Below, piece after piece: positions 21,660 through 33,175 of a DNA stretch of 33,175 bases. Source of the DNA: Opitutia bacterium (GTDB lineage Bacteria; Verrucomicrobiota; Verrucomicrobiia; Opitutales; Seribacteraceae). The notes under the pieces were generated by a model. That model saw only the letters and a program-made list of their open reading frames with translations, made no database searches and was not told where the DNA came from. The position numbers and the translations under genes are program-made. The stretch lies in NCBI GenBank assembly GCA_002694035.1, contig NZKY01000159.1, positions 1 to 33,175 on the forward strand. The letters are read 5' to 3'. Within the stretch, counting starts at the first letter, position 1. Every line of letters starts with the position of its first letter.

Positions 21660-22772
21660 ATGGATATTCGTTATGAAAAACTAGCTAATACGCTTGTTCA
21701 TCATTCTACAAAGCTAAAACCACAAGAAAAGGTATTAATTCACGCTATTGATATACCAAGAGATATGGTATTGTGCTTAATCCGTGCAGTTAGGGATTGT
21801 AATGCTATTCCGTTTGTTCAAGTGCAGGATGGACGAGTCGATCGTGAATGTATTTTAGGAGCAGAAGAAATTCAGTTTGAAACTTCTCTAGAGTGGGAAA
21901 TGCAGAGGATGAAAAATATGGATGCATATATTGCGATTCGAGGATCGCTTAATGTATTTGAGAATTCAGATCTTCCACAAAATGATATGAAGAAGGCCAT
22001 GAAAATCTTGAAGCCTCTTCTTGATTGGCGAGTAAAAAAAACAAAATGGTGCGTCTTAAGATGGCCATCCTCCTCCATGGCACAACAAGCTAAAATGAGC
22101 AGTGAAGCATTTGAAAAATTTTATTTCGATGCTTGTTGCATGGATTATGGTCGCATGACTGAGGGAATGTCTGCATTGGAAAAGCGTATGAAAGTAGCAG
22201 ACCGAGTAAAAATTACCGGTTCAGGAACAGACCTCCGTTTCTCATTGAAAGGTATAGATGCAGTTTCCTGTGGCGGTACATATAATATCCCGGATGGTGA
22301 GGTTTTCTCATGTCCAGTCCGGGACAGTGTAGAAGGTGAAATTACCTTTAATGCCGATACGATTTATCAAGGTGTGTCCTTTTCAAATGTTTTTTTACGA
22401 TTTGAAAAAGGAAAAATTGTAGAATCGCACTCCTCTTCAAACTCTGAAAAATTAAACGAAATATTGGACTCTGATGACGGTGCCCGTTTTATCGGAGAGT
22501 TTGCAATCGCATTCAATCCAATGATTCGTGAACCAATGCAAGATATCCTTTTTGATGAAAAAATTGCCGGTTCTTTTCATTTTACTCCTGGGCAGGCTTA
22601 CGAGGAGGCAAATAACGGTAATAAATCTCAGGTTCACTGGGACATGGTCAATATTCAAAGACCAGAATACGGTGGTGGAGAAATATGGTTTGATGACGAA
22701 TTGATACGTAAGGATGGTGAATTTGTTCCAGATGATTTAATCAAGTTAAATTCAGGTTATCTTCTAGCCTAA
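21660..22772 (+). CDS. Aminopeptidase, M29 (leucyl aminopeptidase II/AmpS) family
   Basis: Metal-dependent N-terminal peptidase, 370 residues, cytoplasmic. The two-domain family pattern is clear. The N-domain has [12 protein letters not shown]. The metal site includes Glu in [12 protein letters not shown], Glu in GEFAIAFNP, Glu-Lys and His in [11 protein letters not shown], and His-Asp in [19 protein letters not shown] at the C-terminus is usual. It starts 28 bp after the kinase-like gene. A TAAAAT box (21645-21650) lies just before the ATG but has no good -35. There is no SD. Confidence 0.92.
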
Positions 22773-28460: not shown

Positions 28461-29651
28461 ATGATTCTTCCAAATATCGATGAATTTCCTTCATTCTCTT
28501 TAAAACGTCTTTTGAGCACTTGTTTCGGCACTGAGTCCAGCGGATCTGAAAAAATCTGTATTTTAATTGATCTACCCGACTTAAACCTGATGCATAACCA
28601 CAAATTTCTTACATTAGACGGTTTTTCTGTTCAAAAATATGCTTACAATACTTTTCTACATGATTTAAAGAATGGTGTTTCAGACGAGCTCTCATACACG
28701 GAGAATGGCTTTTTCGCTTTCAAAACAACAGGGGGCAGTAACTTAGATCCCGAAGATGAAGCGGTTAACGGAAATGGTGATACACTTTCTCTAGAAAGGG
28801 ATATATACCCAAATTTTGATATTATTTTGGCAATAACCGATTTTTCTTTGACCGCTCCGCTAACTGCATCCGCCAAAATCCATGGTTTCCGAGGTGCAAC
28901 TTTACATGGGGTTAATGAAGTAATATTAAATTCTGGTTTGTCTGTAGATTATTTTAAAATAAGCAAACAAGCCGAGCTATTCCGCTCGGTTCTCAACCAT
29001 ACCGATTACTTTGAAATTGATTTTCACACATTAGGGAATGATTCTACATTGCGTATTGACTGTGATGGTCAAAACGCCCAAAAGAGTCATGGTTTATGTC
29101 CGAAGGGAATACCTGATGTCGCTAACTTGCCTGCGGGGGAAGTGTATTTTGTACCTACTTCGGCATCAGGTTCTTTCCCATTCCGTTTTTCGGATGGCAC
29201 CATTGCACAAATGGAGGTTCTAGATGGTGCAATTACCAAAGCGATATTACTCTCTGGAGACAGCGAACTTGTTAATGCTCGAAATAAGCAGTTATCTGAT
29301 GATCCTGCCACCGGCATTATTGGCGAACTTGGATTTGGAACGCAACTACTTCCATTCTCTGGAAAGGATATACAAGACGAAAAGATCCTTGGTACTTGCC
29401 ATGTTGCTACTGGTCGTAGCGATCATCTTGGTGGAACATTGACACCGGATCTTTTCAACTCAAAACTAAACGCTTCGCACGACGATATTCTCTACGCACC
29501 CCCTAAAACACCAGAAATTACTGTGAAAGAAGTACGAATGTACAAAGACGGTCAGGGCACACCAATTCTCAGAGATTTTGTACCCACTCCTTTTCTGCTA
29601 GATAAACTTGAGCCTGAGTATCCTGTTGAAAAATTTGCTGTCAGTACCTAA
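28461..29651 (+). CDS. Divergent M29-like (leucyl aminopeptidase-like) protein
   Basis: 396 residues, no signal peptide. The C-terminal half shows the M29 metal-site order: Glu in ANLPAGEVYFVP, Glu in IIGELGFGTQ, Glu and His in DEKILGTCHVATG, and His-Asp in NASHDDILYAP. This places it as a distant relative of the aminopeptidase at 21660. The N-terminal half diverges strongly and lacks the usual opening. The last ~50 residues (after YAPPKTPEITVKEVRM) are an addition. Peptidase activity is likely but the substrate is unknown. It is followed after 2 bp by a secreted basic protein, suggesting co-transcription. Confidence 0.8.
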   Translation: MILPNIDEFPSFSLKRLLSTCFGTESSGSEKICILIDLPDLNLMHNHKFLTLDGFSVQKYAYNTFLHDLKNGVSDELSYTENGFFAFKTTGGSNLDPEDEAVNGNGDTLSLERDIYPNFDIILAITDFSLTAPLTASAKIHGFRGATLHGVNEVILNSGLSVDYFKISKQAELFRSVLNHTDYFEIDFHTLGNDSTLRIDCDGQNAQKSHGLCPKGIPDVANLPAGEVYFVPTSASGSFPFRFSDGTIAQMEVLDGAITKAILLSGDSELVNARNKQLSDDPATGIIGELGFGTQLLPFSGKDIQDEKILGTCHVATGRSDHLGGTLTPDLFNSKLNASHDDILYAPPKTPEITVKEVRMYKDGQGTPILRDFVPTPFLLDKLEPEYPVEKFAVST

Positions 29652-30071: not shown

Positions 30072-33000
30072 ATGCTTTTGCCCTTTTTTTCAATTGCTCT
30101 TTGGAGCAAACAAATCCTAAGAATTTGGATTTGTTCCATTAGGTTTGGAATTTTTGCAATTTCAGTTGCTTCTGTCATTTCTGCTGATGATCCGGCTGTA
30201 TCTTCATTTAGTACTTTTTCAGTCGATTGGAATGGTTCAGTCTTCTTGATTTCTGGCGAAGCACTAAACCCACAGCCTTTTCCATCGTTAACCCTTTATG
30301 AGAATAATTTTTATAAATTCGAACATAATGGTAGCGCTGGTTTTAGGTTAAATATTGGAGAAAATAATAGTTCTACTTATGTCGATTCTGATCTCTGGAA
30401 TAATGGTGCTCTTTCCCCGCATGAATATCTTTTCTTTCAACCTGACATGAACACTTCGCGAACCCTGTACTACTTTAATCCAGAAAGTAATAGTTCGGTT
30501 GGGCAAATTCAAATATTATCTCACGAATCAGATCTATATTTTCCTGTAGTAACTAATCCTTCTGCAAAGTTTGGGAAATCCATCACAATTAATGAATGGA
30601 ACCAAACAATCGTGGGTGCTCCAGGAGAAGCTGGCTTTGATGATGGCGAAATGCATATCTTTAACCGTGAAGCAAATGGTACATATTCATATTTTGAAAA
30701 AGTCTCACCTCCAATAAGTGGGCTATCCGCTCAGTTTGCTCATTCTATTGAATCAGTTGATAACTACCTCTTCGTTGGATCTCCAGATGTGGTGAACTAT
30801 TCCGGTGTTGTTGATGTGTTCAAAAGAGAAAATAATGGGAGTTATAGTTTTGATAGCAATTTAAGTATTTCTATTGATTCAGGGGACAGTTTTGGATGGA
30901 GTTTATCTGGTGATTCAATCTATCTTGCAATAGGTTCCCTTCAAACCATTAATAACGGAGGGGGAGAAGTCTCAATTTTCGAAAATAACGGAACCAACTG
31001 GAATTTTTCCCAGACTTTATTCGCTGTGGATGAAAATAATCAGAGCGGTGATGAATTTGGTTATGATTTAAAGGTTGATAATAGCAGACTTATTGTAGGT
31101 GCACCCAAAGTTGATGCCAATGGAACCAATTCTGGTTCTGCTTACATTTATGAAAGGAATTCAACCGGTTGGTACCAGACTGCAATTTTATCTCCATCAG
31201 GGCCTTCTGCCGGAGATGAATTTGGCTACGCGGTTGCTCTATCAGGTAATCTGGCTTTCGTGGGAGCTCGACAAAAAGATGGAAATGCTATCGATGCCGG
31301 AGTTGTCTATGTATTTCATTTCGATGGAGTAACTTGGACCGAAGTTTATCAGATTTATCCTCCCACCGATATGGCTAATCAATATTTTTCGTCTGATCTT
31401 GAAGTTCATGATGATATTTTAGCTGTTTCGTCACCTAGAATAGGGGAAGGTAGCATTTACATTTATCGTTTTGAGAATAATGGTTCGAAAATTAGTTATT
31501 TATCTAATTTATCGTTATCCGAAACAAATTCATCAGATCAAAGTTTTTTATCCTTATCTGTACAAAAGGGGGCAGTTTTTGTTGGTGTTCCTGGAGACAG
31601 TACGAAAGCAAATTCAAGTGGAACCACAGTTGTATTTCAGAATGATGCATGGCAGGAAAAATTTCTCCCTGAGGTTGCTCCGATTATTGAAAGTAATTCA
31701 TCAATTTATCATCAAATGTCAGAGGATAACGGCACATATTATTATGACTTCAACGGCTCACACCCAATAGATTCCAATTTGAGTTGGTCTATAAATCAAT
31801 TCCCCGATTCGAATGCAACTTATGATTTAAATTCAACTACTGGCGAATTTAGCTATACTCCACAGGCTGATTTTTTTGGAATTCATTCCTTTTCGATTCA
31901 ATTATCAAACGGTACTTTATCTGATTCCTTAGATTTTAATATGACTGTTCATTCCGTTGAGGATGCTCCAGTTTTTGACGGACCTTTTAACCTAATTGCT
32001 GGAATGGAAGGTGATGAATACAACCAAACAATAGCAGTTCGCGATGTCGACGGCGATTTACTGACTTTAGGCTATTTTTCTTCGCCTTCTTTTGGATTGA
32101 ACACGAGCGGTTTTAATTTGTTTGGTACGCCAAATCCTGGAAGTGCAAACGGCCAGCCATATCAGGATTATAATATAACACTTTCTTTAGATGATGCTAA
32201 AAGTGCCACCGTTTATCAGAGTTTTTCAATTAGAATCCTCAAAAGAAATAATCCACCTGTTATATGGGTTGATGGGAATTCAAGTGTAAATACTTACAAT
32301 ATTAATTTGTCTGAGGACTTTGACAGTAATGCATGGTATGCTTCTCTCCCTCATCTTGATTATAATGATTCGGATGGTCATAAAATTGATTTAAATGTTT
32401 CCATAAATCCTTCATTTGGAAATTTGAGCTGGGATATCAATGCTACTGATTTAAATCAAAGTATTACTTATTCTCCACACGAAAATTTTAATGGAATTGA
32501 TTCATTTACAATGATTTTACGAGACCTTGAGGGAGAAGGAAATAAATCTCACGAATTGACTTTCAATATATCGGTAGCAGCAGTTAATGATGCTCCTGAT
32601 ATTACATCGGCTCCACCGATGAGTATAGTACAAGAGGGTGACCTTTTTTCCTATCAGATTGTTGTCACGGATCCTGATCTTTTTGATACTGGGAGTACAG
32701 AACAACTCAGCGTCTCAGTAGAAAATTTACCTCCTAGTGGATGGCTTGAATTTAATTCAACCACCAATTTACTTTCCGGAACTCCACAATGGTCTGATTA
32801 CGAAGAAGGTCCTCCACGCCTGATTGTCATAAAAGTTCAGGATTCAGGGGGTTTGGAAGATACCCAGGCTTTTACATTGGAAGTAAAACCACATAATTAT
32901 CCACCTGTGATCACGCAAGGAGCTAGCTTTTCTGCTACTCTCGATGAAGATACTTCTATTAATTCATGGGGCGGACTTGATTTGACAGTTTCTGGTTTAG

Positions 33001-33175
33001 ATCAGGTTCAGGGTGTTTTAAACTGGGAAATCTCTCAACAGGCGATAAACGGACAAGCTTCAGTAACAGGTTCTGGAACCACTCCTGCCTCCCTCACTTA
33101 TCAACCGGATGGAAACTTTTCGGGCACCGACCTTTTTATTCTTCGCGTTTTCGAATCATTGGATCCAAATGCATC
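30072..33175 (+). CDS. Giant secreted surface protein: cupredoxin-like domain, seven-bladed FG-GAP propeller, Ig/cadherin-like domains (3' truncated)
   Basis: Open from ATG 30072 to the right edge: 1,034 full codons without a stop. A signal peptide ends near VISA-DD (residue 38). Residues about 45-160 resemble the degenerate cupredoxin-like domain of marine surface proteins (PSLTLYENNFYKF, TLYYFNPE) without copper ligands. Residues about 164-525 hold seven FG-GAP/integrin-alpha blades (for example GDEFGYDLKV with LIVGAP). From about 530 on come tandem cadherin/Ig-like domains: GEFSYTPQADFFGIHSF, VEDAPVF, VNDAPDI, and a He_PIG-type PSGWLEFNSTTNLLSGTP. About 42 of about 87 Asn are in N-X-S/T sequons. 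Likely an adhesin or matrix protein; length unknown. Confidence 0.9.
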   Translation, partial: MLLPFFSIALWSKQILRIWICSIRFGIFAISVASVISADDPAVSSFSTFSVDWNGSVFLISGEALNPQPFPSLTLYENNFYKFEHNGSAGFRLNIGENNSSTYVDSDLWNNGALSPHEYLFFQPDMNTSRTLYYFNPESNSSVGQIQILSHESDLYFPVVTNPSAKFGKSITINEWNQTIVGAPGEAGFDDGEMHIFNREANGTYSYFEKVSPPISGLSAQFAHSIESVDNYLFVGSPDVVNYSGVVDVFKRENNGSYSFDSNLSISIDSGDSFGWSLSGDSIYLAIGSLQTINNGGGEVSIFENNGTNWNFSQTLFAVDENNQSGDEFGYDLKVDNSRLIVGAPKVDANGTNSGSAYIYERNSTGWYQTAILSPSGPSAGDEFGYAVALSGNLAFVGARQKDGNAIDAGVVYVFHFDGVTWTEVYQIYPPTDMANQYFSSDLEVHDDILAVSSPRIGEGSIYIYRFENNGSKISYLSNLSLSETNSSDQSFLSLSVQKGAVFVGVPGDSTKANSSGTTVVFQNDAWQEKFLPEVAPIIESNSSIYHQMSEDNGTYYYDFNGSHPIDSNLSWSINQFPDSNATYDLNSTTGEFSYTPQADFFGIHSFSIQLSNGTLSDSLDFNMTVHSVEDAPVFDGPFNLIAGMEGDEYNQTIAVRDVDGDLLTLGYFSSPSFGLNTSGFNLFGTPNPGSANGQPYQDYNITLSLDDAKSATVYQSFSIRILKRNNPPVIWVDGNSSVNTYNINLSEDFDSNAWYASLPHLDYNDSDGHKIDLNVSINPSFGNLSWDINATDLNQSITYSPHENFNGIDSFTMILRDLEGEGNKSHELTFNISVAAVNDAPDITSAPPMSIVQEGDLFSYQIVVTDPDLFDTGSTEQLSVSVENLPPSGWLEFNSTTNLLSGTPQWSDYEEGPPRLIVIKVQDSGGLEDTQAFTLEVKPHNYPPVITQGASFSATLDEDTSINSWGGLDLTVSGLDQVQGVLNWEISQQAINGQASVTGSGTTPASLTYQPDGNFSGTDLFILRVFESLDPNA

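Follow-up and report, generated by a model that had tools for sequence, protein, structure and literature searches.

What question does a bacterial surface gene pose when its product is crowded with N-X-S/T sequons, and is there an enzyme in the same organism that could use them? The stretch of DNA analyzed here (the window) comprises 33,175 nucleotides of contig NZKY01000159.1 from an Opitutia bacterium of the order Opitutales (assembly GCA_002694035.1). It ends in a truncated open reading frame (ORF) that is predicted to be the N-terminal part of a secreted surface protein with a full size of ~3,290 amino acids. On the sequence evidence set out below, this window protein is very probably a target of Campylobacter-type (PglB/STT3) Asn-linked glycosylation in a marine family of Opitutales.

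Extended sequons in the window protein and its orthologues

The initial annotation had counted by hand about 87 Asn and about 42 N-X-S/T sequons, with about 16–17 expected by chance, and these figures are correct. The window protein contains 87 Asn, 136 Ser, and 58 Thr in 1,034 amino acids, and N-X-S/T (X not Pro) occurs 42 times against 15.5 ± 3.4 in 10,000 composition-preserving shuffles, the maximum of which was 29. The reversed motif S/T-X-N is found 11 times. Ser or Thr follows Asn at +2 in 44 cases and stands at all other offsets from -10 to +10 in 12–23, so the earlier statement that richness in Asn and Ser is insufficient to explain the +2 coupling also holds.

Asp or Glu occupies position -2 in 32 of the 42 sequons compared with 4 of 44 other Asn residues (Fisher 1.4e-10), and it is therefore the bacterial PglB sequon D/E-X-N-X-S/T that is enriched, rather than N-X-S/T in general. 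This extended sequon, with X not Pro, is the acceptor of Campylobacter PglB (PMC4894442). It is present 32 times in the window protein, while 1.8 ± 1.3 are expected, the maximum of 2,000 shuffles is 8, and the mirror-image pentapeptide is absent (0); the excess is by itself statistically conclusive. The proposal that N-X-S/T was selected for glycosylation thus stands as to the excess but had missed the extended form in which the signal sits. The correction is required because plain sequons without the acid are conserved no better than other Asn: in five close orthologues, Asn is retained in 134 of 160 comparisons for extended sequons (84%), 23 of 50 for plain sequons (46%), and 114 of 220 for other Asn (52%).

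Where the Asn of an extended sequon is retained, the -2 residue is still acidic in 125 of 134 cases, 24 of them through D–E exchange, and the +2 residue is still Ser or Thr in 128 of 134, 31 of them through S–T exchange; positions -1, +1, and ±3 around the same Asn differ in ~28–48%. The extended sequons thus evolve under purifying selection.

Orthologues of the window protein within the family are ~3,290 amino acids long. The giant gene most likely continues on contig C58 (L010), because this contig aligns to orthologue residues 1008–3116, directly after the part encoded in the window; the two contigs share an overlap of 78 bases that contains a few mismatches. Over the length of the orthologue, extended sequons crowd approximately the N-terminal 1,900 residues and become rare in the last third, which serves as an internal control. 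The earlier description of sequons in every domain accordingly applies to the part in the window and not to the full protein. Among the homologues in the PglB-bearing family (29 loci), 763 pentapeptides were counted against 66 expected and 69 mirror images, an 11-fold enrichment in proteins that are related and therefore not independent counts, and the excess is hence present in orthologues as well. At the 3′ end of the giant gene (L192–L197), the C-terminal region of the orthologues closes with a repeat rich in Trp and Tyr (WFWTERWGWSWT...YLYNS...W.FFR), and the gene that follows is convergent and reads like deoxyxylulose-5-phosphate synthase.

The PglB homologue and the co-occurrence of enzyme and motif

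The window genome (2.88 Mb, 165 contigs, 93% complete) contains one STT3 match, an intact gene of 1,064 amino acids on contig C90. The protein matches PF02516 (STT3) with 76.8 bits (cut-off 24.5) and PF21436 (STT3-PglB_core) with 84.6 bits (cut-off 23), and aligns to Campylobacter lari PglB (5OGL) with an E-value of 6e-42. A phmmer search at E 0.001 with this enzyme returned PglB chains only and no AglB. Its AlphaFold2 model is of modest confidence (predicted local distance difference test, pLDDT, 66.5), and the best Foldseek matches (5OGL, 6GXC, and 3RCE) are all C. lari PglB. The score to the NCBIfam equivalog NF050801 (ProtGlycPglB) is 205 bits (E 1.6e-60), far below the cut-off of 1300, which places the enzyme among PglB homologues that the curated equivalog group does not include. 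It also has a C-terminal extension.

By alignment, D84, R179, D186/D188, R508, and I724 of the C90 enzyme correspond to D56, R147, D154/D156, R375, and I572 of C. lari PglB, and WWD 608–610 of its WWDYG motif (608–612) corresponds to C. lari 463–465. In the C. lari enzyme, D56 is the catalytic Asp of EL1, and D154/D156 make up the DXD motif. E430 (in a TIRE motif) and R442 were equated with E319 and R331 by the motif and the identical 12-residue spacing, because the hidden Markov model alignment stops short of the EL5 loop; a 7-residue insertion is found in some relatives. The equivalents of D56, R147, D154, D156, E319, R331, R375, WWD, and I572 are invariant in all 29 family PglBs (WWD in 29/29). 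R331, the reader of the -2 acid (PMC7226087, PMC4894442), contacts this residue of the acceptor, and WWD holds the +2 Ser/Thr (PMC7226087). The oligosaccharyltransferase sought in the genome is thus encoded there with all key residues.

The C90 gene lies in an operon-like block (L009, 301–7506) with genes for a 559-amino-acid coiled-coil protein and a 764-amino-acid membrane protein, and the block is conserved in 27–30 of 31 genomes. The 764-amino-acid protein has 70 pentapeptides against 9.8 expected, which is weak evidence because nearly all come from three conserved positions. The coiled-coil protein (6 against 13) and a FecR-like protein beside PglB (18 against 27) were considered as targets and rejected for lack of any excess.

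A scan of named genomes found PglB at 31 loci, all in Opitutales/Opitutia or Verrucomicrobia(ota) and mostly in single-cell or metagenome-assembled genomes, which isolate names such as TMED, together with general knowledge, suggest to be marine. In the family of the window, PglB is present in 31 of 42 genomes, in 12 of the 14 of high quality, and in all four genera, and it was found in 0 of 20 other families of Opitutales. An even draw of 388 Verrucomicrobiota genomes added one more genome (G345, of another family; L190 and L191), with two divergent STT3-like proteins that have KWGYG/RWGYG instead of WWDYG; it is the single, divergent case among 387 other Verrucomicrobiota.

The motif follows the enzyme. 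In a sample matched for Big_9 domains, PglB-bearing genomes had 157 pentapeptides (29 expected, mirror 25) and families of Opitutales without PglB had 14 (21 expected, mirror 12), totals from related proteins that are not independent counts and a comparison across families in which lineage is a confounder. Asp or Glu stood at -2 in 158 of 378 sequons of the former and 14 of 208 of the latter, so that the signature is absent where the enzyme is absent.

Targets in the window genome were surveyed in 756 kb of sampled stretches. The excess is confined to a few giants, namely the window protein with its C58 part, a protein on C55, and an ORF on C5, and the counts for giants other than the window protein are 32 against 2.8 (C55), 67 against 9.1 (C5), and 16 against 3.0. 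Selection therefore seems to have aimed the system at a small number of giant surface proteins. On C140, a large protein rich in Asn has only 9 pentapeptides against 4.1. The C5 ORF (L031, 613–19998) encodes 6,462 amino acids, has 9 mirror images, and begins with a region that looks LamG-like.

Proposed mechanism and competing explanations

In the proposed mechanism, the giant protein would be exported by Sec, and the single-subunit PglB (C90, 1,064 amino acids), presumed active, would transfer a lipid-linked glycan en bloc to the Asn of D/E-X-N-X-S/T pentapeptides predicted to lie in exposed turns of the propeller and immunoglobulin (Ig)/cadherin domains. The glycan and the way in which it would be made and flipped are inferences. 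The mature protein would then bear a dense coat of up to dozens of N-glycans over its N-terminal half, and selection would have made and retained the pentapeptides in the window protein and a few other giant surface proteins. Such glycans may protect the protein against proteases or phage, or may contribute to adhesion.

Several observations weigh against this proposal, besides the lineage confounder already mentioned. In each of the 29 family PglBs, a Ser stands in place of Tyr468 of the C. lari enzyme, and the Met of the MXXI motif is replaced by Ile (27) or Thr (2), although the I572 equivalent is kept in 29/29; because of these two replacements, the donor sugar may differ from that of Campylobacter. 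There is no pgl-type gene cluster around the C90 gene, and the evidence for a lipid-linked donor consists of two initiating phosphoglycosyl transferases (PF02397) in the window genome and a nearby ABC exporter pair recognized by eye. The initial annotation had proposed a test on all exported proteins of the genome; the excess holds for the few giant surface proteins, and the remaining secreted-like proteins sampled show almost none (51 against 41 expected, mirror 27), where a rough hydropathy criterion served to assign signal peptides and membrane spans. Finally, four genomes (G007, G010, G017, and G022; 57–87% complete) have pentapeptide-rich homologues and no PglB match. One of the transferases, on contig C36 (L201, 9426–19721), lies near genes that by eye resemble NusG, an exosortase (548 amino acids, seven transmembrane segments), and Wzm/Wzt, a candidate surface-glycan export locus.

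FG-GAP propellers and cadherins bind calcium through Asp/Asn loops, and the motif could accordingly be structural, formed by Asx turns or by the D-x-N-x-D/S loops with which integrin-type propellers and cadherin domains bind calcium. The window protein matches FG-GAP_2, Big_9, He_PIG, and Cadherin_5 in Pfam and tand_rpt_95 in NCBIfam. Its residues 41–545 gave a confident AlphaFold2 model (pLDDT 85.5) whose best Foldseek matches are integrin alpha heads (alphaM, alphaX, and alpha4); the fold is that of the FG-GAP beta-propeller, a likeness that describes architecture only, membership resting on Pfam FG-GAP_2. In the secondary structure of this model, 14 of the 16 extended sequons are predicted in turns or loops and 0 inside strands, as a structural motif would also have it. 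However, D-x-N-x-D is depleted (8 against 21 expected), Glu appears at -2 as often as its abundance predicts, and Pro is excluded both at +1 (3/766, with 5.5% expected, p 3e-15) and at -1 (11/774, p 2e-9). Thr is mildly favored at +2, and no other central residue is enriched in [DE]-x-?-x-[ST]; together, the Pro avoidance, the Thr preference, the lack of other central residues, and the D-x-N-x-D depletion exclude calcium loops and compositional drift, and the site pattern matches the acceptor rules of PglB. The Big_9 domains of PglB-lacking relatives are without excess, and distant orthologues have 6–11 of 23–26 sites in common, the density nonetheless being maintained. A structural origin is thus highly improbable.

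It is just as improbable that PglB has recently been lost or inactivated in the living population, leaving the sequons as relics, or that only a few sites are glycosylated. A few family members of ~90% completeness (G033 and G436) have no PglB match, as this explanation would predict, but PglB is found in nearly all high-quality family genomes, the catalytic residues are kept in 29 full-length sequences, and the sites are still under purifying selection. G033 and G436 were considered as natural cases of PglB loss and proved uninformative, with one Big_9 protein each and 5–6 pentapeptides against ~2 expected; three PglB-bearing sisters in the same genus have 2–5.

A different enzyme might use the sites, for example a cytoplasmic N-glucosyltransferase of the HMW1C type, since enzymes of this kind likewise modify N-X-S/T in adhesins of bacteria. 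They have no known need for an acid at -2, no HMW1C domain scored above cut-off in the window genome (best 14 bits), and the genome encodes a PglB that has the -2 arginine, so that this option is fainter still. Asn/Ser-rich low-complexity drift or duplication of repeats, giving sequons without modification, has a negligible chance and is refuted by the mirror and orthologue tests: the protein is indeed rich in Asn, Ser, and Thr and its FG-GAP and Ig domains are repeated, but the coupling is at +2 only, D–E and S–T exchanges preserve the motif, an Asn-rich 3,351-amino-acid protein of the same genome is balanced (57 forward and 57 reverse sequons), and DNA repeats are ruled out as the source because each of the 32 extended sequons lies in a different 15-mer, their codons are mixed, and the remaining five frames contain 0–1 pentapeptides each.

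Relation to known systems and features of the locus

Glycosylation of the window protein by PglB would resemble archaeal AglB and the S-layer, known for multi-site N-glycosylation of surface proteins, and would be unlike them in the bacterial extended sequon, the -2 arginine, and the phmmer result. The closest parallel is the PglB of Campylobacter jejuni and C. lari, a single-subunit STT3-type enzyme that shares the equivalents of D56, DXD, TIXE, R331, R375, and WWDYG and has the same acceptor with Pro excluded (PMC4894442). The present system differs in phylum, enzyme length (1,064 against ~713 amino acids), the change of Tyr468 to Ser and of MXXI to (I/T)XXI, the lack of an adjoining pgl cluster, and its detectable targets, which are surface proteins of giant size with many sites. 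The PglB enzymes of the Desulfovibrio type (D. gigas, D. desulfuricans, and D. vulgaris) are likewise single-subunit oligosaccharyltransferases from bacteria other than Campylobacter and its relatives, but have a relaxed -2 preference (PMC4894442), in contrast to the strongly selected -2 acid in the substrates here.

No report of an oligosaccharyltransferase or of N-glycosylation in Verrucomicrobiota was found in the open-licence literature, and a report elsewhere is possible. The chemistry has been described before, and what is new is the phylum, the giant substrates with many sites, the lack of a pgl cluster, and the change in a residue that contacts the sugar; the case extends a known system in a strong and testable way and does not amount to a new mechanism. 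We rate as an even question whether the family, free-living and marine, runs its own kind of PglB system, in which giant, rapidly diverging integrin-head-like and cadherin-like proteins would be decorated at dozens of sites to form a hyper-glycosylated coat like an archaeal S-layer, with a donor sugar unlike that of Campylobacter, as the Tyr468 to Ser change suggests.

The substrates bear a statistical and evolutionary imprint of the exact specificity of the enzyme, which allows enzyme and targets to be matched in uncultured ocean bacteria on sequence evidence alone. N-glycosylation would gain a new phylum and a PglB whose -2 rule is readable from natural substrates, glycoengineering a new enzyme, and genome analysis a general method in scans for D/E-X-N-X-S/T excess relative to the mirror image.

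Table 1. Features of the truncated giant gene, in window coordinates.
Feature	Position	Strand	Details and basis
Truncated giant-protein ORF	30072-33173	+	1,034 amino acids; no stop before window/contig end
Putative hydrophobic N-terminal export signal (approximate boundary)	30072-30188	+	Read by eye from ...RFGIFAISVASVISADDP
Small beta domain, then FG-GAP beta-propeller (residues 41-545)	30192-31706	+	16 extended sequons; AlphaFold2, secondary-structure mapping, Foldseek
Cadherin-like / bacterial Ig (Big_9, tandem-95) domains	31707-33173	+	16 more extended sequons; Pfam, NCBIfam tand_rpt_95, sequon list
32 D/E-X-N-X-S/T sequons	30225-33122	+	DWNGS at Asn54 through DGNFS at Asn1015; sequon count

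The other window genes checked by Pfam are housekeeping genes or without a match. Two genes resemble M29-type (thermophilic metalloprotease) aminopeptidases, at 21660-22772 and 28461-29651, the second matching weakly.
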